Below, piece by piece: positions 2,610 through 19,919 of a stretch of 24,958 nucleotides of DNA. Position numbers and translations under genes: made by a program. Every line of letters starts with the position of its first letter. The stretch's first letter is position 1. The DNA lies in the NCBI GenBank assembly GCA_946611445.1, contig CAMODP010000005.1, positions 1 through 24,958 of the forward strand. The letters are read 5' to 3'. This DNA comes from an uncultured Eubacterium sp. Lineage in GTDB: Bacteria; Bacillota; Clostridia; Lachnospirales; Lachnospiraceae. Below the pieces are notes generated by a model that did not search any database, had not been told where the DNA came from, and saw nothing but the letters and a program-made list of their open reading frames with translations.

Positions 2610-3419
2610 ATGGGGACAGAACTGCAGAAAGAAGAAAAACTGAAAGCGTATATACAGACACTCGGCAGTCTCGCTGTCGCCTTTTCCGGCGGCGTGGATT
2701 CTGCTTATCTGAGCGATGTGGCTCATGAGGTTCTGGGCGGCCGGATGGTTGCGGTGACAGCCAGGTCAGCCCTGTTTCCGGAGAGGGAATACAGGGAGTC
2801 TGAAGCGTTCTGCCGTGAAAAAGGGATACGGCAGCTGACCGTGCTGTCGGATGAACTGGAGACAGAGACGTTTCGCCGCAATCCGAAGAACCGCTGCTAT
2901 CTGTGCAAAAAAGATCTTTTCAGAAAAATACTCGCGCTGGCAGAAAAAGAGGGGATCGGATATGTCGCGGAAGGCTCGAACATGGATGACCTGGGAGATT
3001 ACCGGCCGGGCCTGCAGGCCGTGGCGGAGCTGGGCATCGTGAGTCCCCTGCGGGAGGCCGGCCTGACGAAGCAGGAGATCCGTGATCTCTCAGAAAAGCG
3101 GGCGCTTCCCACCTGGAACAAGCCTTCCTTTGCATGCCTGGCATCCCGGTTTGTGTACGGAGAGACGATTACGCGGGAGAGGCTGAACCGTGTGGGTGCG
3201 GCTGAACAGCTCCTGCTGGACCTGGGTTTCCGGCAGATGCGGGTGCGCGTCCACGGAGAAGTCAGTGAAACGGCCAGAATCGAGGTCCTGCCGGAGGATA
3301 TCGGGCGGTTCGCGGAGGAACAGCTGCGCCAGAAAGTATGGGCGGGCCTGAAGGCCCTGGGATTTGCCTATGTGACACTGGATCTGCAGGGCTACCGCAC
3401 CGGAAGTATGAACCTTTGA
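2610..3419 (+). CDS. larE: ATP-dependent sacrificial sulfur transferase LarE
   Basis: LarE makes the nickel-pincer nucleotide (NPN) cofactor by adenylating the pyridinium dicarboxylate intermediate and giving up a sulfur. The 269-residue protein has the PP-loop ATP pyrophosphatase motif SGGVDS (residues 26-31), an EGSNMDDLGDYRPG stretch, and KPSFACLASR with Cys176. Cys176 has the same number as the sacrificial cysteine of Lactiplantibacillus LarE, so this looks like the single-use version. A further RCYLCKKD pair (Cys96, Cys99) is present, so sulfur relay or a cluster cannot be ruled out. The start is set by GGAGGAG upstream of the ATG. The stop codon is directly followed by a copy of the GGATTG-type hairpin described separately, and larB follows 70 bp later. 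Confidence 0.93.
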   Translation: MGTELQKEEKLKAYIQTLGSLAVAFSGGVDSAYLSDVAHEVLGGRMVAVTARSALFPEREYRESEAFCREKGIRQLTVLSDELETETFRRNPKNRCYLCKKDLFRKILALAEKEGIGYVAEGSNMDDLGDYRPGLQAVAELGIVSPLREAGLTKQEIRDLSEKRALPTWNKPSFACLASRFVYGETITRERLNRVGAAEQLLLDLGFRQMRVRVHGEVSETARIEVLPEDIGRFAEEQLRQKVWAGLKALGFAYVTLDLQGYRTGSMNL

Positions 3420-3451
3420 GGATTGCGAGAGCACGAAGTGCGGAGCAATCC
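3420..3451 (+). repeat. Solo copy of the 3' hairpin (P3) of the dispersed structured element
   Basis: GGATTGC (3420-3426) pairs with GCAATCC (3445-3451), and the inner GCAC-gaa-GTGC pairs at 3431-3441. The same hairpin ends both large elements at 15.4 and 19.7 kb, where the closing pair is T-A instead of C-G. It begins on the last bases of the larE stop codon and ends 38 bp before larB. There is no U-run after it, so it is not an ordinary terminator. Confidence 0.75.
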
Positions 3452-3489
3452 GTGGAATCATAACCTACAAATAGCAAGGAGCAGAAAAA

Positions 3490-4263
3490 ATGAAGACAGA
3501 AGAAATTCTCCGGCAGGTGCAGTCCGGGGAACTGTCAGTGGAAGAGGCGGTGCGCGCCCTGGGGCGGGAGCCTTTTGAGGAGATGGGCTTTGCCAAGCTG
3601 GACATGCACAGGGAGACGCGGTCCGGATTTCCGGAGGTTGTGTACTGCAGCCGCAAGGCAGATGATTTCCTGGTCAGGATATACAGGGAACTGTATGAAA
3701 AAAACGGTGAGGTTTTCGGCACCAGGGCGGACGCCCATCAGTTCGAGGTCGTGCGGGACATTCTGCCCCAGGTGACATGGGACCCGGTCTCCCGCATTTT
3801 GAAGGCAGAGAGGCCGGACAAGAAAAGGTGCGGCTGCATTGCGGTCTGCACAGCCGGGACGGCTGACATATCTGTCGCGGAGGAAGCCGCACAGACGGCC
3901 GAGTTTTTCGGAGCGGCAGTGGACCGGATCTATGACGTAGGCGTGAGCGGCCTGCACCGGCTGCTGTCCCGGATGGAGCGGATACAGGCGGCGAACTGCG
4001 TGGTGGCGGTTGCGGGCATGGAGGGCGCGCTGGCCAGTGTGATAGGCGGACTGGTGCAGAATCCTGTGATCGCCGTGCCCACCTCTGTCGGATACGGCGC
4101 CAGCATGAACGGCCTGTCTGCCCTGCTGACGATGATTAATTCCTGCGCGAACGGGATTGCCGTCGTAAATATCGACAACGGGTTTGGCGCCGGATACATG
4201 GCAACACAGATTAACCGTCTGGCTGTAAGAGGCGCACAGAACACAGCGCAGCAGCAGGACTGA
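3490..4263 (+). CDS. larB: Nickel-pincer cofactor biosynthesis carboxylase/hydrolase LarB
   Basis: LarB carboxylates the pyridinium ring of nicotinic acid adenine dinucleotide and hydrolyses the phosphoanhydride, the first step to the NPN cofactor. The 257-residue protein has an N-terminal helical part (EEILRQVQSGELSVEEAVRAL) and a C-terminal AIR-carboxylase-like domain with TAGTADISVAEEAA, VVAVAGMEGALASVIGGL, PVIAVPTSVGYGA and NSCANGIAVVNIDNGFGAG. The last motif carries the conserved cysteine reported to form a covalent link with the substrate in LarB. AAGGAG lies eight bases before the ATG. It lies between larE and larC in one operon. Confidence 0.93.
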   Translation: MKTEEILRQVQSGELSVEEAVRALGREPFEEMGFAKLDMHRETRSGFPEVVYCSRKADDFLVRIYRELYEKNGEVFGTRADAHQFEVVRDILPQVTWDPVSRILKAERPDKKRCGCIAVCTAGTADISVAEEAAQTAEFFGAAVDRIYDVGVSGLHRLLSRMERIQAANCVVAVAGMEGALASVIGGLVQNPVIAVPTSVGYGASMNGLSALLTMINSCANGIAVVNIDNGFGAGYMATQINRLAVRGAQNTAQQQD

Positions 4264-4282
4264 CGGAGGGGAACTGGTTTGT

Positions 4283-5629
4283 ATGAAAAAAGAAATGCTG
4301 TATATTGACGCGTCCAGCGGGATCAGCGGCGATATGTTTGCAGCCGCCATGCTGGATCTGGGCGCGGATATGACGGTCCTGGAGCGCGCACTGGCCTCAC
4401 TGCCCCTGACAGGGTTCAGAATACAGGTCAGCCGTGTACAGAAGTCTGCCATTGACTGCTGTGATTTTGACGTGGTGCTCGATGAAGACATTGAAAACCA
4501 TGACCATGACATGGAATATCTGCATGGACATGAGCACAGCCACGGGCATGAGCACGATCATGAGCACAGCCACGGACATGAACACGGGCATGAGCACGAA
4601 CATGAACATGGTCACGGGCATGAGCACGATCATGAGCACAGCCACGGGCATGATCATGGACACAGCCATGTCCACAGGAACCTCGGAGATATCCGGCGGA
4701 TCCTGTCTGCGGCAGAACTGACGGACGGAGCGCGGTCGATGGCGGAACGCATCTTCCTGATACTGGCTGAGGCCGAGGCTGCCGTTCACGGAAAATCTCC
4801 GGAAGAAGTCCATTTTCATGAGGTAGGCGCCGTAGACTCTATAGTGGATATCACTGCCGCGGCCGTCTGCCTGGACAATCTGGGTATCCGCGAGGTGGTT
4901 ATACCCAGGATCTGTGAAGGAAGCGGGACCGTGCGCACACAGCACGGGATCCTGCCGGTACCGGTACCGGCTGTGTCGGCGATTTCCGCTTCTTACGGCC
5001 TTCCCCTGCATTTTACGGGACTGCACGGTGAATTTGTGACACCGACCGGGGCTGCCATCGCCGCGGCAGTCATGACGTCAGATACCCTTCCGGACAGATT
5101 CCGCATACGCGGGCTCGGCATCGGCGCAGGCAAGCGGGAGTATGAGCTGCCCGGCATGCTGCGGATTATGCGGATCGAGACGGAAGAGGAAGAGAAGCGG
5201 GACAGCATCTGGAAGCTGGAGACGAATCTGGATGACTGTACCGGCGAGATCCTGGGATATGTCATGGAGAGGCTTTTTGAAGCCGGTGCCCGGGACGTTC
5301 ACTACATGCCCGTATTCATGAAGAAGAACCGTCCTGCCTGGCAGCTGAATGTGATCTGTGATGAGGACAGGATACCGCGGCTTGAAAAAATAATATTTGA
5401 GGAGACAACCACCATCGGGATCCGGAGATGCCGGATGGAACGCACTGTCCTGGAACGGCGGGAAGGAGAAGCCCGGACAGTATTCGGCAAGGTCCGCACG
5501 AAGATCTGCCGCGTGGGAGACAGTGAAAAGGTATATGTAGAATATGACAGCGCCGCCGCTGTAGCGAAGGAGAAGGGCATCCCCCTCTCGGAGATTTTCC
5601 GCCTGGCGGCAGAAGAAGGGAATTCCTGA
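4283..5629 (+). CDS. larC: Nickel insertion enzyme LarC, single ORF with long His-rich insert
   Basis: LarC is the CTP-dependent cyclometallase that inserts nickel into the pincer cofactor. The 448-residue protein starts with LYIDASSGISGDMF and has VHFHEVGAVDSIVDI and HGEFVTPTGAA in the first half, then ETNLDDCTGEILGYVMERL and IFEETTTIGIRR in the second. In Lactiplantibacillus the two halves are joined by a programmed frameshift, but here they are one uninterrupted frame. Residues 73-131 form an unusually long His-rich insert (about 28 histidines in HxH runs with Glu, Asp, Gly and Ser), probably a nickel store or entry site. GGAGGGG lies upstream of the ATG, and the gene follows larB by 19 bp. 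A terminator at 5681-5718 ends the operon. Confidence 0.95.
   Translation: MKKEMLYIDASSGISGDMFAAAMLDLGADMTVLERALASLPLTGFRIQVSRVQKSAIDCCDFDVVLDEDIENHDHDMEYLHGHEHSHGHEHDHEHSHGHEHGHEHEHEHGHGHEHDHEHSHGHDHGHSHVHRNLGDIRRILSAAELTDGARSMAERIFLILAEAEAAVHGKSPEEVHFHEVGAVDSIVDITAAAVCLDNLGIREVVIPRICEGSGTVRTQHGILPVPVPAVSAISASYGLPLHFTGLHGEFVTPTGAAIAAAVMTSDTLPDRFRIRGLGIGAGKREYELPGMLRIMRIETEEEEKRDSIWKLETNLDDCTGEILGYVMERLFEAGARDVHYMPVFMKKNRPAWQLNVICDEDRIPRLEKIIFEETTTIGIRRCRMERTVLERREGEARTVFGKVRTKICRVGDSEKVYVEYDSAAAVAKEKGIPLSEIFRLAAEEGNS
4541..4647 (+). repeat. DNA-level direct repeat inside the larC His-rich segment
   Basis: A 35-bp sequence starting CACGGGCATGAGCACG occurs at 4541-4575 and again, identical, at 4613-4647 (72-bp spacing). 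It lies within a longer run of CATGAGCAC/CATGAACAC units. This suggests the His tract expanded by slippage or unequal crossing-over in steps that kept the frame. Confidence 0.85.
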
Positions 5630-13717: not shown

Positions 13718-14689
13718 TCAGATCAGATAATTCTTGTTGACGTAGCCGGACTTTCCAAGAGTGGGAGCATATACCCACCAGTAGGTGGAATCGCTGGTAT
13801 CCTGCACCTGTACGGTCTGGCCGGAGTACAGCTTGCCGATCTCATTGCTGTAGTCGTAGGCTTTCGCGGAGCGCAGCGCCAGATAGCCGGTGGCAACCGA
13901 TACGGTCTTAGTGAAGCCGGAAGAACTGCTGCCTGCGCCTGCCAGATAGTTTCTGTTTACATAGCCGGATTTACCAAGCTTCGGAGAGTAGCCCCACCAG
14001 TAGGTGGAATCGCTCTTGTCAGTAACGGTAAAGGTATCGCCGGTGTACAGCTTGCCGATCTCGTTGCTGTAGTCGTAAGCCTTTGCAGTGCGCAGCGCCA
14101 GATAGCCGGTGGCAACACTGACGGAATAGTTTTCTCCGCTCGGAGCCGGAGCCGGGCTGCTGCCGCCCACCAGGTAGTTCCTGTTGACGTAGCCGGACTT
14201 TCCGAGTGTGGGAGCGTATACCCACCAGTAGGTGGAATCGCTGGTATCCTGTACCTGTACGGTCTGGCCGCTGTACAGCTTGCCGATCTCATTGCTGTAA
14301 TCATAGGCCTTCGCGGTGCGCAGCGCCAGATAACCGGTGGCAACCGATACGGTCATGGTTGTGCCCGAGGGAGAGGGGCTGCCGCCGTAGCGGAGATAGT
14401 TGCTGTTTACGTAACCGGATTTGCCAAGTGACGGCGCGTACACCCACCAGTAGGTGCCGTAGCTTTTGTCGATGACCTGTACGGTCTCGCCTTTGTAGAG
14501 ACGGCCGATCTCATTTTCATAGGCAAAGGCTCTCGCGCTGCGCAGTGCCAGGTAGCTGCTGGCGACATCTACAATGTAGGTCTCGTCTGCGGCAACGTCC
14601 TGGATCGTCACCTGATTGACAGCCGGGATGCCGAACAGGAGAAACAGTGCCATTCCGACAGCCGTCAGTTTTTTGAGCAGGGTTTTCAT
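13718..14689 (-). CDS. Secreted protein with four bacterial SH3 repeats
   Basis: The 323-residue protein has a signal peptide (MKTLLKKLTAVGMALFLLFGIPA..., cleavage probably near residue 35) followed by four SH3_3-type repeats at about 38-99, 111-173, 188-249 and 261-323. Each carries GYLALR, NEIGKLY, TYWWVYAP and LGKSGYVNxNYL. The linkers are Gly/Ser/Pro-rich. Such domains bind peptidoglycan cross-bridges, so a wall-binding or wall-sensing role outside the cell is likely. No catalytic domain is attached. GGAGGAG precedes the ATG, and it lies 59 bp downstream of the GNAT gene on the same strand. Repeats 2 and 4 are nearly identical in DNA as well as protein. The long + strand frame over this region is a shadow of the repeats. 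Confidence 0.93.
   Translation of the reverse strand: MKTLLKKLTAVGMALFLLFGIPAVNQVTIQDVAADETYIVDVASSYLALRSARAFAYENEIGRLYKGETVQVIDKSYGTYWWVYAPSLGKSGYVNSNYLRYGGSPSPSGTTMTVSVATGYLALRTAKAYDYSNEIGKLYSGQTVQVQDTSDSTYWWVYAPTLGKSGYVNRNYLVGGSSPAPAPSGENYSVSVATGYLALRTAKAYDYSNEIGKLYTGDTFTVTDKSDSTYWWGYSPKLGKSGYVNRNYLAGAGSSSSGFTKTVSVATGYLALRSAKAYDYSNEIGKLYSGQTVQVQDTSDSTYWWVYAPTLGKSGYVNKNYLI
13721..14358 (-). repeat. Homogenised ~0.2-kb tandem repeats within the SH3 gene
   Basis: Units at roughly 13721-13909 (SH3 repeat 4), 13945-14130 (repeat 3) and 14170-14358 (repeat 2) are strongly similar. Units 2 and 4 differ by only a handful of bases, including at synonymous sites. Unit 1 (about 14390-14580) is more diverged. 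This pattern fits recent duplication or gene conversion. Confidence 0.8.
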
Positions 14690-15222: not shown

Positions 15223-15441
15223 TGGTCTGTACCTCCACAGATGTAAACCTGCCGTTCATCAGAGGATCGGCATAACTTTGTAACAAATGTGTAATTATAT
15301 TATGCCACAAGATGGCAGGAATGTCTACAGATGCTTTCTCACAATCCGGCACAACGTTCCTGCGTAAGAGAGGTTTCTTAAAAGGGCGGGCCGACGGAAC
15401 CGTTAATTGCGGAACCGGATGTTTGCGTGTAAAATGTAAGA

Positions 15442-15632
15442 GATTATAACGCCAAAAGTACTGAACCCACGCAAGCTAAGTGCCCTGCGGGTATGCTTGC
15501 AGGTGGGTGAAAGTACTTGGGGCGTGCCCCGACATGAGGACGAAGTGGTGCGAAAGCAACACGAAAGTCCGAATGGCGGGAGGATTGTGGGAGCACGAAG
15601 TGCGAAACAATCCGTAATCTGCATTTGAAAAC
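15442..15632 (+). repeat. Dispersed structured element, full copy 1
   Basis: A 191-nt element with a predicted three-domain fold. Domain 1: P1 15449-15461/15513-15525, P1b ACCCAC/GTGGGT (15465-15470/15503-15508), P1c GCAAGC/GCTTGC (15471-15476/15495-15500). Domain 2: CCCGACAT/ATGGCGGG (15528-15535/15573-15580) enclosing GGAC/GTCC and a GAAA-capped stem (15545-15562). Domain 3: GGATTGT/ACAATCC (15582-15588/15607-15613) with an inner GCAC/GTGC. A conserved tail TTTGAAAAC ends it. The 3' 108 nt differ from the 19.7-kb copy at about eight positions. It ends 37 bp before nth on the same strand. No ORF. It could be a structured RNA or a non-autonomous mobile element. Confidence 0.8.
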
Positions 15633-15669
15633 TTACGTATAAAAATATAACGGAAGGCCGGGGAAAGCA

Positions 15670-16416
15670 ATGAAAGCATCTGAGACAGAGAGACTGAATA
15701 ATAATAAAAAAAAAGCCGCGGATAAAAAGAAACAGGATAAGAAGGAGCCTGAGCTGGAGGAGGTCAGGAAGCTGGCGCTGGAAGTCATTGAAAGGCTGAA
15801 AAAAGAATATCCTGAAGCGAGCTGCACACTGGAATACGAGAAGGCCTGGCAGCTGCTGGTAAGTGTGCGTCTGGCGGCACAGTGTACGGACGCGCGCGTC
15901 GACCAGATCACGCCGCTGCTGTACGCGAAATTTCCGACTGTAAAGGCACTGGCAGAGGCTGACCCTGATGATATTGAGGAGATTGTGAAGCCGTGCGGTC
16001 TGGGACACAGCAAGGCCAGGGACATTTCCAGATGCATGAGAGTCCTGCACCTGGAATATAATGATCAGGTGCCGGAAACCTTCGACGAGATCCTGGCCCT
16101 GCCGGGGGTCGGCCGCAAAAGCGCCAATCTGATCATGGGAGATGTGTTCGGAAAGCCGGCTATCGTCACGGACACGCATTGTATACGGCTGACAAATCTG
16201 ATCGGTCTGGTTGACGGCATAAAAGAGCCGGCAAAGGTAGAAAAAGCACTGTGGAAGATCGTGCCTCCGGAAGAGGGAAATGATCTGTGCCACAGGTTTG
16301 TCCTCCACGGGCGCGCGGTGTGCGCGGCAAGGCATCCGAGATGTGAGATCTGCTGTCTGCGTGATATCTGCAGGCATGGAAAGGAGACGCTCGGCGGCAA
16401 ACTGAAATTGAAATAA
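15670..16416 (+). CDS. nth: Endonuclease III (DNA glycosylase/AP lyase)
   Basis: Removes oxidised pyrimidines from DNA and cuts the abasic site. The 248-residue protein has the helix-hairpin-helix LPGVGRKSANLI with catalytic K150, the catalytic D168 in VTDTHC, and the [4Fe-4S] ligands C218-x6-C225-x2-C228-x5-C234, exactly the Nth spacing. A lysine-rich N-terminal tail of about 28 residues (KKKAADKKKQDKKE) precedes the conserved domain and makes it longer than the usual 210. It may aid DNA binding. The tail codons include a run of nine A (15706-15714), a possible slippage site. The ribosome site GGGGAAAGCA is modest. The structured element lies just upstream. Confidence 0.95.
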   Translation: MKASETERLNNNKKKAADKKKQDKKEPELEEVRKLALEVIERLKKEYPEASCTLEYEKAWQLLVSVRLAAQCTDARVDQITPLLYAKFPTVKALAEADPDDIEEIVKPCGLGHSKARDISRCMRVLHLEYNDQVPETFDEILALPGVGRKSANLIMGDVFGKPAIVTDTHCIRLTNLIGLVDGIKEPAKVEKALWKIVPPEEGNDLCHRFVLHGRAVCAARHPRCEICCLRDICRHGKETLGGKLKLK

Positions 16417-16457
16417 TAGTTAACAGATTTGTTATGTATACCACTGCCTCTCTGTGC

Positions 16458-16494
16458 TATAATAAATTCCTGAACCCAGGGGAGCGGGTTTTTT
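16458..16494 (+). promoter_or_regulatory. TATAAT box followed by a small hairpin with a T-run
   Basis: TATAAT at 16458-16463 has no good -35 at 17 bases (TTGTTA lies 23 bases upstream). Just after it AACCC/GGGTT (16473-16477/16486-16490) is followed by TTTT. The hairpin may be a weak nth terminator or an attenuator for the next gene. Confidence 0.35.
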
Positions 16495-16510
16495 AATAGG
16501 GGGAATCCAT

Positions 16511-17008
16511 ATGCATATCACAGGGGCGCTGGTTCTGGCGCTGCTGACAGGACCTTTTCTGTCGGCAGGGCTTTCATCGCTGTCCGCTTTTTTACCAGAT
16601 ACAGAATTTCATATTCCTCTCACAGACCGTCAGAAAGAGATCCTGCGGGAGCAGGGCCTGCCGGAGATCTATGAGGAGCTTACGGCCGCGCAGAGAGATA
16701 TGATTTTGTCCATCGAACAGCTTCTGGAGAAAGTGGAGGATAAATACGGGAAGGAAATGGTTTTTGAGAGCTATCAGCCCGGGACGGAGGAAGATCCGGA
16801 TACGGTAAGCGTGCAGTTCCGGGATCCTGACTGGGACAGAAGCCAGCCAAATGCCACCGTAACCAGAAAAGAGGAAAACGGTATTGTGTCCTTTTATGAT
16901 GATTACGCAGTGCCTTCTGAAGGGAGGCAGCTGAAAATTCTGCTGACAGAGACGGCGCTGGAACTGGCGGAGATCATACAGAGTTCATTTTCTTCAGTTC
17001 CGGCATGA
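16511..17008 (+). CDS. Small exported or membrane-anchored protein of unknown function
   Basis: I do not recognise this 165-residue protein. Residues 1-30 are hydrophobic with small residues (MHITGALVLALLTGPFLSAG), fitting a signal peptide or anchor although the usual positive charge is missing. The rest is acidic and hydrophilic, with LTDRQKEILREQGLPEIYEELTAAQRDMILSIEQLLEKVEDKYG predicted as helices, then a beta-rich part. The layout resembles small Firmicute lipoproteins, but no lipobox cysteine is present. AGGGGG lies before the ATG at 16511. The 3' end overlaps the 3' end of the MATE gene by 35 bp in convergent orientation. Confidence 0.65.
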   Translation: MHITGALVLALLTGPFLSAGLSSLSAFLPDTEFHIPLTDRQKEILREQGLPEIYEELTAAQRDMILSIEQLLEKVEDKYGKEMVFESYQPGTEEDPDTVSVQFRDPDWDRSQPNATVTRKEENGIVSFYDDYAVPSEGRQLKILLTETALELAEIIQSSFSSVPA

Positions 17009-18470
17009 CGGTGCAGAGCATGGTGATGAAGCAGGCCAGTCCGCCGATTACGTTGGATACCGGCTCCGCCAGGAAGACACCGTCTGTCCCCATGTTCATG
17101 CCCAGTGCCAGCAGATATGTGGCGGGAACTACAATAAAGGCTTTACGGAGGAGCGAGAAAAAGATCGCTCTTCTTTTTTTGTTCAGAGATTTGAACGTAG
17201 TCTGGCCGGTGTACTGGAAAACCATGAACGGAAAAGCATAAAAATACAGATGCAGCGCGTGTCGGGTTTCCGTCAGAATTCCTGCGTCCGTGCTGAAAAT
17301 GGAGATGAGCAGGGCAGGCTTCCATTCCAGGAACCCCCATGTCGCCAGAGAATACGCGAAGCCCAGAACCGCCAGCGTCATGACAGCTTTTCGCACCAGA
17401 TCCGGCCGGCGTGCGCCGTAATGAAAGCTGATGATCGGCGCTGCCCCGTCTGCGATGGCGAGCATCGGCAGCTCCAGAATCTGCCGGACAGAGGCCAGTA
17501 TGGCCATAATCGTGATGTACAGGTCTCCGCCTGTCAGGGAGAGTACCCGGTTGCACGTGATCTGTACAAGGGAATTGGTCATCAGCATGACGAAGGTAGC
17601 GACACCGAGAGAGATGATATCAGCAGCACGCCGGAATTCCCGAAATATCTCGCACACAGGCTGGCGGTGCAGGCGGATCTCGATATTGCCGCGAAGCAGC
17701 AGGAGAAGGACAAATACGGCAGACAGTCCCTGTGAGATCACAGTGGCGACAGCCGCGCCCCGTACTCCCATGCCGAGCCCAAAAATAAAGACCGGGTCCA
17801 GAATCAGGTTGGCGACGGCGCCGATGGCGACGGTGACCATGGCCGCGTGGGGATAGCCCTGTGCCACGATAAACGGATTGAGACCGGACGCCAGCATGGA
17901 AAAAACCGTGCCTGCCAGGTAAATCTGCAGGTAGGGCAGGCTGTAGATGAGCGCCTTCCCGGAAGCGCCGAACAGCTGCAGGATCGGACGGCCGAACAGC
18001 CACCCGGCGGCCATGAGAAAAATGGCGCATCCCAGCTCCAGCCAGAAGACGGTATCCAGCAGCATACCTGCTTCTCTGGAATCACCGCGCCCCCTTGCGA
18101 TGGCAAAGAGCGGCGCGCCGCCGCTCCCGAACAGATTGGTGAAGGCGGCAATGATGGTGATGACAGGAAAACACAGTCCCACTGCGCCCAGCGCTGCGGT
18201 TCCCGTGCCGGGTATCCGGGAGATATAGATCCTGTCGACGATATTGTAGAGGAGATTCAGAAACTGGGCTGCCAGCATGGGAACCGCCATGGACAGAATG
18301 TCTTTGACGATTCTCCCGTCGGAGAAATCAATCTGGCGGCTGTGTGACGGATGCCTCTCCGGGCCGGCGGACGATGAAATCGATGAAGAGTTTTTTGATT
18401 TATGACTGATTTTCACTGGTTTAGGATCACTTTCGCTGATGTACTGTTTGCAGTATAGCACATTTGTCAA
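16974..18470 (-). CDS. MATE-family multidrug/cation antiporter
   Basis: An inner-membrane transporter of about 12 helices that usually exports drugs or metabolites against Na+ or H+. The core starts at DFSDGRIVKDILSMAVPMLAAQFLNLLYNIVDRIYISRIPG and shows two homologous MatE halves (FGSGGAPLFAIARGRGD in the first, ISFHYGARRPDLVRKA in the second). It resembles the DinF/MepA-like branch. The start is uncertain. The frame opens with TTG at 18470 without a good ribosome site, and the first about 45 residues are polar and atypical. GTG codons at 18461 and near 18416 are also possible, and a true start could be later. It overlaps the upstream gene's 3' end and is divergent from the aldo/keto reductase. 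Confidence 0.88.
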   Translation of the reverse strand: MTNVLYCKQYISESDPKPVKISHKSKNSSSISSSAGPERHPSHSRQIDFSDGRIVKDILSMAVPMLAAQFLNLLYNIVDRIYISRIPGTGTAALGAVGLCFPVITIIAAFTNLFGSGGAPLFAIARGRGDSREAGMLLDTVFWLELGCAIFLMAAGWLFGRPILQLFGASGKALIYSLPYLQIYLAGTVFSMLASGLNPFIVAQGYPHAAMVTVAIGAVANLILDPVFIFGLGMGVRGAAVATVISQGLSAVFVLLLLLRGNIEIRLHRQPVCEIFREFRRAADIISLGVATFVMLMTNSLVQITCNRVLSLTGGDLYITIMAILASVRQILELPMLAIADGAAPIISFHYGARRPDLVRKAVMTLAVLGFAYSLATWGFLEWKPALLISIFSTDAGILTETRHALHLYFYAFPFMVFQYTGQTTFKSLNKKRRAIFFSLLRKAFIVVPATYLLALGMNMGTDGVFLAEPVSNVIGGLACFITMLCTVMPELKKMNSV

Positions 18471-18510
18471 GAGAGAAAGGCGCCAGTCACCGGCCGGCCT
18501 TTATCTGCCC

Positions 18511-18539
18511 TTGTTTCTGCGGTTCTTTTTGCGTATAAT
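18511..18539 (+). promoter_or_regulatory. Promoter of the aldo/keto reductase gene
   Basis: TTGTTT (18511-18516), 17 bases, TATAAT (18534-18539). A start near 18546 would give a leader of about 35 nt before the ATG at 18581. Confidence 0.6.
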
Positions 18540-18580
18540 TACAGTACAGCAAAGCATCCAGCAGAGGAAGGAGGATCCGC

Positions 18581-19714
18581 ATGCAGTATCAGGATTTCAG
18601 AGGAGAGAGGATATCGCGTCTGGGTTTCGGCATGATGCGCCTGCCGGTCACGGGCGGGGATCAGGCGTCTGTTGATTATAGAAAGGTCGAAGAGATGTTC
18701 CTATATGCCGTTGAGCATGGAATCAATTATTTTGACACGGCGTATCCCTATCATGAAGGGGAGTCGGAGCGGACGCTGGGCCGCCTTCTGGATGAACACC
18801 ATCTCCGCGGCGAGGTCAACATCGCGACAAAGCTCTTTACGCTCGGTATGGAGAAACCGGAGTATGACCCCAGAAAGATGTTCGCGGAACAGCTTTACAG
18901 ACTGCGCACGGATCACGTTGATTTTTATCTGATGCACGGCCTGCACGGGGATCAGTGGGAGACGCTGAAGACTCGTTTTGATATTATCCCGTGGCTGGAT
19001 TCGCTTCGTAGGGAAGGGATCATACGGCATATCGGCTTTTCATTTCATGATGAGCTGCCGAAGTTCAAGGCGATTCTGGACGATTATGACTGGGAATTCG
19101 CCCAGATACAGTACAATTACGCGGACCACAGGATACAGGCCGGGGATGAGGGGATCGCTTACGCCAGACAGAAAGGCGTGCCGCTGACCATCATGGAGCC
19201 GCTGAAGGGAGGCAGCCTGATCTTCCCGGATTATCCCGAAATGGATGAGATCCGGCGGAAGCACGGGCTGGCGAAGGAATCCTTCGCGGAACTGGGGCTG
19301 CGCTATGTCCTGTCTCAGGAAGGTCTGCTGACCGTGCTCTCCGGCATGAGCACGATCGGGCAGATGAAGGAAAACATCGATATAGTTTCCCGCGCCGAAA
19401 CCGGATGCTTTACCGGGGAAGAACAGGCCTGCGTGGAGGAAATCCGGGAGGTTCTCCGTCAGGCGGATGCCATTCCCTGTACCGGATGCAAATACTGCGT
19501 TGACGGATGTCCGCAGAATATCGCCATTCCGGACGCGTTCCGGTTCTATAATGAAGCGAAACGGTATCACAATCCGGCTTCTCAGAAGAGAGGATATGAC
19601 AGGTCCTGTTCCAATCTTGCGGATTGTGTCGAATGCGGCCAGTGCGAAGAAGCCTGTCCGCAGCATCTGGAGATTCCGGCACTGCTGAAGACAGTGCGCG
19701 CATATCTGGATTGA
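18581..19714 (+). CDS. Aldo/keto reductase with C-terminal double [4Fe-4S] ferredoxin domain
   Basis: A 377-residue oxidoreductase of the COG1453 type. The N-terminal TIM barrel has GFGMMRLP, the aspartate and tyrosine of NYFDTAYPYHEGESE, the lysine of IATKL and the histidine of FYLMHGLHGD, the classical AKR tetrad. The C-terminal part has two cluster motifs, CTGCKYCVDGCP and CVECGQCEEACP (C-x2-C-x2-C-x3-C each), so electrons can pass through ferredoxin-like centres rather than only NADPH. The substrate is unknown and it is probably cytoplasmic. AGGAGG lies upstream of the ATG. The stop codon overlaps the first bases of structured element copy 2. Confidence 0.93.
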   Translation: MQYQDFRGERISRLGFGMMRLPVTGGDQASVDYRKVEEMFLYAVEHGINYFDTAYPYHEGESERTLGRLLDEHHLRGEVNIATKLFTLGMEKPEYDPRKMFAEQLYRLRTDHVDFYLMHGLHGDQWETLKTRFDIIPWLDSLRREGIIRHIGFSFHDELPKFKAILDDYDWEFAQIQYNYADHRIQAGDEGIAYARQKGVPLTIMEPLKGGSLIFPDYPEMDEIRRKHGLAKESFAELGLRYVLSQEGLLTVLSGMSTIGQMKENIDIVSRAETGCFTGEEQACVEEIREVLRQADAIPCTGCKYCVDGCPQNIAIPDAFRFYNEAKRYHNPASQKRGYDRSCSNLADCVECGQCEEACPQHLEIPALLKTVRAYLD

Positions 19715-19887
19715 TTACAGCGCCAGAAGGGCTGAGCCCAAGCAAACTTGCTTGCTAGTGGGCGAAAGTACTTCTGGCGTGCCCCGACATGAGGACGAAG
19801 TGGGGTGAAGGCACCACGAAAGTCCGAATGGCGGGAGGATTGTGGGAGCACGAAGCGCGGAACAATCCGTAATCTACTTTTGAAAAC
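19713..19887 (+). repeat. Dispersed structured element, full copy 2
   Basis: A 175-nt relative of the 15.44-kb element in the same orientation. P1 is a perfect 9-bp stem (19721-19729/19771-19779). P1b is GCCCA/TGGGC where copy 1 has ACCCA/TGGGT, a compensatory change. The CCCGACAT/ATGGCGGG domain and the GGATTGT/ACAATCC hairpin (19837-19843/19862-19868) are kept, as is the TTTGAAAAC tail. Shared sequence starts at GATTA, so the element begins inside the stop codon of the aldo/keto reductase and ends about 160 bp before the xpaC-like gene. The rest of the 332-bp gap holds the promoter described next. Confidence 0.8.
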
Positions 19888-19919
19888 GGAATTATGAATA
19901 GACCGTAGGAAAGCCCGGC

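Follow-up and report, generated by a model that had tools for sequence, protein, structure and literature searches.

The window analyzed here is a 24,958-nucleotide stretch of DNA from an uncultured Eubacterium sp. of the Lachnospiraceae (assembly GCA_946611445.1, contig CAMODP010000005.1). Its + strand carries two full copies and one relic of an elaborately folded element, and both full copies match the Rfam family RF01699 (Clostridiales-1) over the whole model (positions 1-166), exceeding its gathering score of 48 bits. This is a known RNA family, named in 2010 with no job assigned to it; we show here that much of it consists of a transposon family that is widespread among Lachnospiraceae. 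The original prediction, which recognized no named RNA family, had proposed either a structured RNA class or a non-autonomous mobile element. The novelty of the RNA family is gone, and the evidence backs both proposals at once. The features are listed below.

15441..15620, + strand: copy 1, a full RF01699 core with closing helix P1, hairpin P2 with a longer tip, P3 and P4; 117 bits
19712..19894, + strand: copy 2 element, 183 bp; Rfam match 19712-19875, 105.3 bits
19707..19711: putative 5-bp target duplication of copy 2, left, TGGAT; four of five bases equal the right one
19895..19899: putative 5-bp target duplication of copy 2, right, TGAAT
19712..19714, + strand: stop codon TGA of the upstream gene, which is the left tip of copy 2 (end of the open reading frame; distance -3)
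about 3412..3461, + strand: relic (third, partial copy), reduced to helix P4 plus the P1 right strand

Copy 1 has a good left arm and, after position 15620, a decayed one (GCATTTGAAAAC); no target duplication is recognizable at its flanks. The next gene, at 15670-16416 (+) and endonuclease III-like by reading, starts 49 nt past the copy. Copy 2 has the same length as L030 and L054 elsewhere in the same genome (L-numbers denote loci or copies, and G-numbers genomes, in the comparison set); its left arm, TGATTACAGCGCCAGAAG, is good and its right arm, ACTTTTGAAAACGGAATTA, is decayed. The two copies had been placed on the + strand between genes. Both exist there, with coordinates that were given too short (the Rfam matches span 15441-15620 and 19712-19875, and the second element runs to 19894). 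The sequence named as the end of copy 2, TTTGAAAAC, falls within the decayed right arm, and copy 2 is not strictly intergenic: it touches the upstream gene at 18581-19714, aldo/keto-reductase-like by reading, which takes its stop codon from the element. A link to an aldo/keto-reductase paralogue was taken as chance, the element lying 67 nt downstream in one of six loci (L131; 43-44% identity in the relatives shown). The last 108 nt, described as about 93% identical, differ at 8 positions (92.6% identity), and the P1b pairs ACCCA/TGGGT and GCCCA/TGGGC are both present. The relic scores 41.7 bits (E 6e-10) over 3318-3461 with a covariance model built here and 34.9 bits with the Rfam model, under the cut-off of 48; it sits between two + strand reading frames and overlaps the stop of the first (2610-3419). 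In sum, the window contains an arm-bearing copy that has decayed, a copy whose right end has decayed, and the relic.

Rfam files RF01699 as gene/sRNA, and the table of Weinberg et al. (2010; PMC2864571) lists Clostridiales-1 as probably RNA and probably not cis-regulatory, from Clostridiales and the human gut. A literature search, the accessible portion of that paper included, returned no account of function or mobility for Clostridiales-1. Up to E 5, copy 1 has no match in any other Rfam family, and a hammerhead likeness of the P3 loop was rejected on that ground. For the element's own genome (a 1.95 Mb assembly, 67% complete), blastn gives 24 places, so the expected further copies exist; there are 15 RF01699 matches, 12 of them above the cut-off. 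Matches occur in 23 of 41 genomes (this one and 40 relatives), with 16 of 16 in the genus, 6 of 9 among others of the family and 1 of 16 in the order, and the highest count in one genome is at least 51 (52 candidates scored there). Class-wide, 16 of 391 genomes have a match (13 above the cut-off), and 12 of these belong to the same family. A plasmid search gave no match to the element. Phage records yielded three partial matches (E 6e-14 to 3e-4), all in unannotated fecal records, and viral contigs gave 15 pattern hits, none with a duplicated pair.

Many Clostridiales-1 copies are, by their anatomy, miniature inverted-repeat transposons. With its end at P1, the Rfam model omits an outer right arm; in the flanks of intact copies, a second inverted arm is seen beyond the right end of the model. 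Arm-bearing copies extend from TGAT...CAAAAG to CTTTTG...ATCA and occur in both orientations, and matches run into the dozens in a single genome. L030 and L054 have the terminal inverted repeats, as do copies in G015, G017 and others, and nine copies in G015 all have an arm-to-arm length of exactly 195 bp; the right repeat is the decayed one in both window copies. All facing arm pairs 36-260 bp apart in the loci collected by that stage were tested with flanks ignored, giving 120 distinct pairs at 112 loci. A flush 5-bp direct repeat brackets 60 of these pairs (shuffled mean 3.1, maximum 9), a flush 6-bp repeat brackets 8 others (shuffled mean 0.2, maximum 3), and a 4-bp repeat brackets none; 18 of the remaining 52 pairs match at four of five bases. 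Among the 60 5-bp repeats, T occupies position 1 in 55 and A position 5 in all 60, with A preceding the repeat in 52 cases and T following it in 55. This bias inside and beside the repeats defines the target as A-TNNNA-T. An earlier subset gave a 5-bp repeat in 19 of 35 pairs (shuffled mean 1.4, maximum 6), and the G332 loci in 5 of 21 (shuffled mean 0.4, maximum 3).

Shorter derivatives, with arm pairs of 38-159 bp, keep the arms and the duplication. At L336 (7680-7717) and L344 (6895-6932) these are 38-bp palindromes, two arms back to back with 5-bp repeats, and represent footprints or minimal derivatives. At L335 (6316-6523), the same arms and a TCTAA repeat surround an unrelated, self-complementary filler; as this locus illustrates, the arms may move other cargo too. 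L345 (2245-2645) consists of a Clostridiales-1 element with a nested element of another kind, whose ends are TTACTGTTCA...TGAACAGTAA and which has a 9-bp repeat by eye. Thirteen nth-like loci of relatives lack the element, their sequences being too diverged for a clean empty site. Insertion inside genes was considered and rejected: the joined flanks form a reading frame in 14 of 47 copies, and the eight inspected were judged to be chance or upstream-of-start frames. Arm-less copies form head-to-tail arrays at L178 (G010), L179 and L180 (G015), and L042 and L189 (G004), repeating about every 170 bp or separated by a similar spacer of some 34 bp.

One strand of the element is a four-way junction in which P1 encloses P2, P3 and P4, and the helices covary. 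The alignment comprises 70 copies, including both from the window, which were selected out of 101 for a length of 145-200 nt and for word similarity and then aligned by sequence. With the consensus structure drawn from one alignment row, which favors it over slid versions, and with related copies that are not independent, 83.5% of cells in P1, P3 and P4 are paired, versus 30-40% when the structure is slid by 1-3 columns. Cells changed on both sides of a pair number 474 against 63-137 slid and 162 ± 14 shuffled. Pairing reaches 96.1% in the P3 stem, 97.5% in P4 and 98.9% in the P4 tip, and a number of internal-loop and tip positions keep one base in at least 90% of the 70 copies. In most copies the P4 tip reads GCGAAGC, which as DNA would be an exceptionally stable mini-hairpin. 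Both window copies take the consensus fold, and the elaborate folding that had been predicted for them is borne out by z scores of -8.2 for 15441-15639 and -6.3 for 19712-19894 (200 shuffles each, all beaten). The reverse strand of copy 1 folds well too (z -6.1), as a consequence of the inverted repeats.

Orientation separates the copies further. The context set contains 160 copies: 101 from the first set, 29 of 48 model matches in named contigs, 22 of 27 class-search loci and 8 from G015. For the 47 copies with the right arm, 46 of which have a repeat matching at four or five bases, 18 are oriented with both neighboring genes and 14 against both. The 29 copies of a middle class, with arm-like sequence only, split 8 with and 8 against. 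The 84 copies in which no arm is found, a class of mixed subfamilies with a few array units and at least one same-site pair in two species, run with both neighbors in 38 cases and against them in 6 (p 9e-7); the arm versus no-arm comparison gives a Fisher p of 0.004. A sense upstream stop codon lies within 12 nt of the copy start in 9 of 22 arm-bearing, 8 of 12 middle-class and 32 of 50 arm-less copies. Stop proximity is therefore common to the classes, and what sets the arm-less copies apart is less their position than their orientation. In 20 of the 38 sense arm-less copies, a stop codon that near is combined with a next start codon 15-150 nt downstream. Arm-less copies are thus sense-biased and mostly start at an upstream stop codon, and in some of them the right strand of P1 is matched to the locus.

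Such matching is seen at the purB-like locus, obtained in 30 of 31 genomes of G066's genus with genes named by reading. G219 and G066 carry the element between a purF-like and a purB-like gene (97.9 and 94.7 bits), and G452 has a diverged version there (66.7 bits). In L456, L457 and L436 the two genes are adjacent and the element is absent; the site is empty in relatives, but the purF-purB copy has no arm. Two weak matches, in L447 and L448, are found on the far side of purB. The P1 right strand of L434 is perfectly complementary over 11 bp to the end of purF, and L456, which is without the element, has the same purF end, TTTGAGCAATAA; the corresponding pairing in L435 is shorter. Upstream of purB, L443, L444 and L445 hold decayed copies; by eye, the right P1 strand that survives in them, ATCATTCAT, is complementary to the preceding gene's end. 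The copies L411 and L413 belong to two species of the same genus and follow one and the same gene end (...KMFNM stop); their P1, P2, P3 and P4 strands differ yet pair in each. This is consistent with selection on the fold of a fixed copy, and also with copy replacement or template switching.

The search for a partner transposon covered two transposase families (PF00665 and PF01609) in part of the genomes. G332 has 102 arm ends, versus none for the reversed pattern. Among the 100 ends listed, the facing pairs more than 250 bp and less than 8 kb apart, with no end between them, are one of 7.2 kb and one of 473 bp. The 7.2-kb stretch contains a transporter and other ordinary-looking genes. The 473-bp stretch (L495, G332:C38:109352-109824) has a back-to-back arm palindrome near its left end and a Clostridiales-1 remnant at its right. 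Other candidate partner ends, the single ends L077 and L079 and the chance long pairs L219 and L247, yielded nothing.

Elsewhere in the window, the relic adjoins three co-directional frames that read as larE-, larB- and larC-like (2610-5629), names that stand for nickel-pincer cofactor synthesis, and lies between the first two; the larC-like third frame has a histidine-rich stretch. A 323-residue frame at 13718-14689 (-) appears by eye to be a secreted protein with four tandem SH3-like repeats.

We favor, with a probability of about 0.7, the reading that Clostridiales-1 is the conserved-RNA cargo of a non-autonomous miniature inverted-repeat transposon, of which old copies have been kept between genes. 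Arm-bearing copies would be moved by a cut-and-paste transposase acting in trans. In a polycistronic mRNA, the closed junction of a sense arm-less copy would tuck the insert away in the gap from a stop codon to the following ribosome-binding site; gene coupling or mRNA stability would thereby be preserved and the copy retained. Orientation and position suggest this fold-out account of retention, which we put forward tentatively and at somewhat less than even odds. A further step, in which the transposon spreads a folded RNA whose closing helix is rewritten at a settled site to pair with the upstream gene end, and in which a ribosome finishing that gene opens the junction and its reclosure couples the gene to the next one, is distinctly doubtful.

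Several results weigh against the favored reading or its parts. No duplicated arm pair over 401 bp exists in 95 loci, nor does a looser test find one in all loci collected by that stage; none of the 13 PF00665 or PF01609 gene loci obtained in a search of six genomes has these ends, and the two long G332 pairs are devoid of transposases and of matching repeats. A perfect 5- or 6-bp repeat is missing from 52 of the 120 arm pairs. Four arm-less subfamilies (39 copies) have no shared duplication at any offset tried, and these subfamilies may accordingly move differently. With regard to the fold, further pair types barely exceed the shuffled value (86 vs 77), pairing is weak in P1 (45.6%) and in the P3 tip (67.9%), misalignment being part of the cause, the folds of copy 2 as DNA and as RNA coincide, and P1 looks broken in G452. 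The longest P1 stem within genomes, 8.8 between a copy's own strands versus 6.0 with those of other copies (66 copies), stems partly from subfamily structure. Nearness to a stop codon is not peculiar to arm-less copies, the gene calls come from a simple codon-based caller made for this analysis, and the published table judged the family probably not cis-regulatory.

An ordinary structured RNA gene or cis-regulatory RNA, multiplied by duplication and with flanking repeats that are incidental, would account for the gene/sRNA class in Rfam, the strong covariation, the sense bias of arm-less copies and the compensated stems of copies at the same gene end. We regard it as very unlikely, given the flush 5-bp duplication at A-TNNNA-T in half of the arm pairs, the derivatives down to 38 bp that keep arms and duplication, and the unrelated filler between the arms of L335. 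The original prediction had the right kind of entity in suggesting a mobile element; the IS200/IS605 or RAYT route that it suggested finds no support. Elements mobilized as single strands in the IS200/IS605 or REP-RAYT manner are not known to leave target duplications or to have terminal inverted repeats. By eye, a hairpin is possible at each end of arm-bearing copies, as mobilization via end hairpins would have it; their terminal inverted repeats and fixed-length duplications (flush, 5 bp and sometimes 6 bp) make this route extremely unlikely, although no search for Y1 (PF01797) or RAYT genes was made.

Two other explanations concern the fold. It might act as single-stranded DNA, for example for replication or for the transposase, rather than as RNA. 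The coinciding DNA and RNA folds of copy 2 and the GCGAAGC tip of P4 agree with this, which we nevertheless consider quite improbable, as the sense bias of arm-less copies points to transcripts. Alternatively, the matching stems might come from template switching at imperfect palindromes during replication and not from selection, a process that could also have lengthened P1 into the host gene and eliminated the right arm. The P1 strand of L434 complements a purF end that is the same in element-free L456, the P2 stems are largely replaced between L411 and L413, and the outward P1 run is longer than when swapped in 78 arm-less copies (3.49 vs 2.61), compared with 2.70 vs 2.64 in 47 arm-bearing ones. 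Template switching should, however, turn conserved purine loops into paired sequence, and several loop bases are 90% constant in the 70 copies; it also leaves the sense bias unexplained. We judge it rather unlikely.

The transposon reading gives Clostridiales-1 an origin, a true right end and a target site, and it splits moving copies from settled, sense-oriented copies near stop codons. Covariation alone is no proof of a gene, and other bacterial RNA families may ride mobile elements.

REP/REPIN-RAYT systems comprise short, dispersed palindromic repeats that are moved in trans. Clostridiales-1 elements are likewise short, dispersed and palindromic and, as proposed here, moved in trans; unlike those repeats, they have target duplications and terminal inverted repeats. 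The available text of PMC2229807 describes NEMIS/Correia, ERIC and CIR as non-coding, mostly intergenic, RNA-folding sequences of about 200 bp or less, with terminal inverted repeats and a target duplication, a TA motif in most. The Clostridiales-1 element resembles them, as described there, in being short, non-coding and mostly intergenic, with terminal inverted repeats, a target duplication and an RNA fold. It differs in its 5-bp TNNNA duplication in place of a TA motif, in a multi-branched fold with nearly constant loop bases and in an arm-less, sense-oriented set of which some members have a locus-matched P1. In the same source, ERIC and NEMIS affect neighboring mRNAs, providing precedents for repeats of this kind that act on messages. 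IStrons, as presented in the accessible part of PMC4227781, similarly join a mobile DNA element to a structured RNA that may render insertion harmless. Unlike IStrons, the Clostridiales-1 element has no transposase gene and no group I intron, the latter following for copy 1 from the lack of any other Rfam match up to E 5, and we claim no splicing. By anatomy, Clostridiales-1 elements belong to a known class of RNA-folding miniature transposons.

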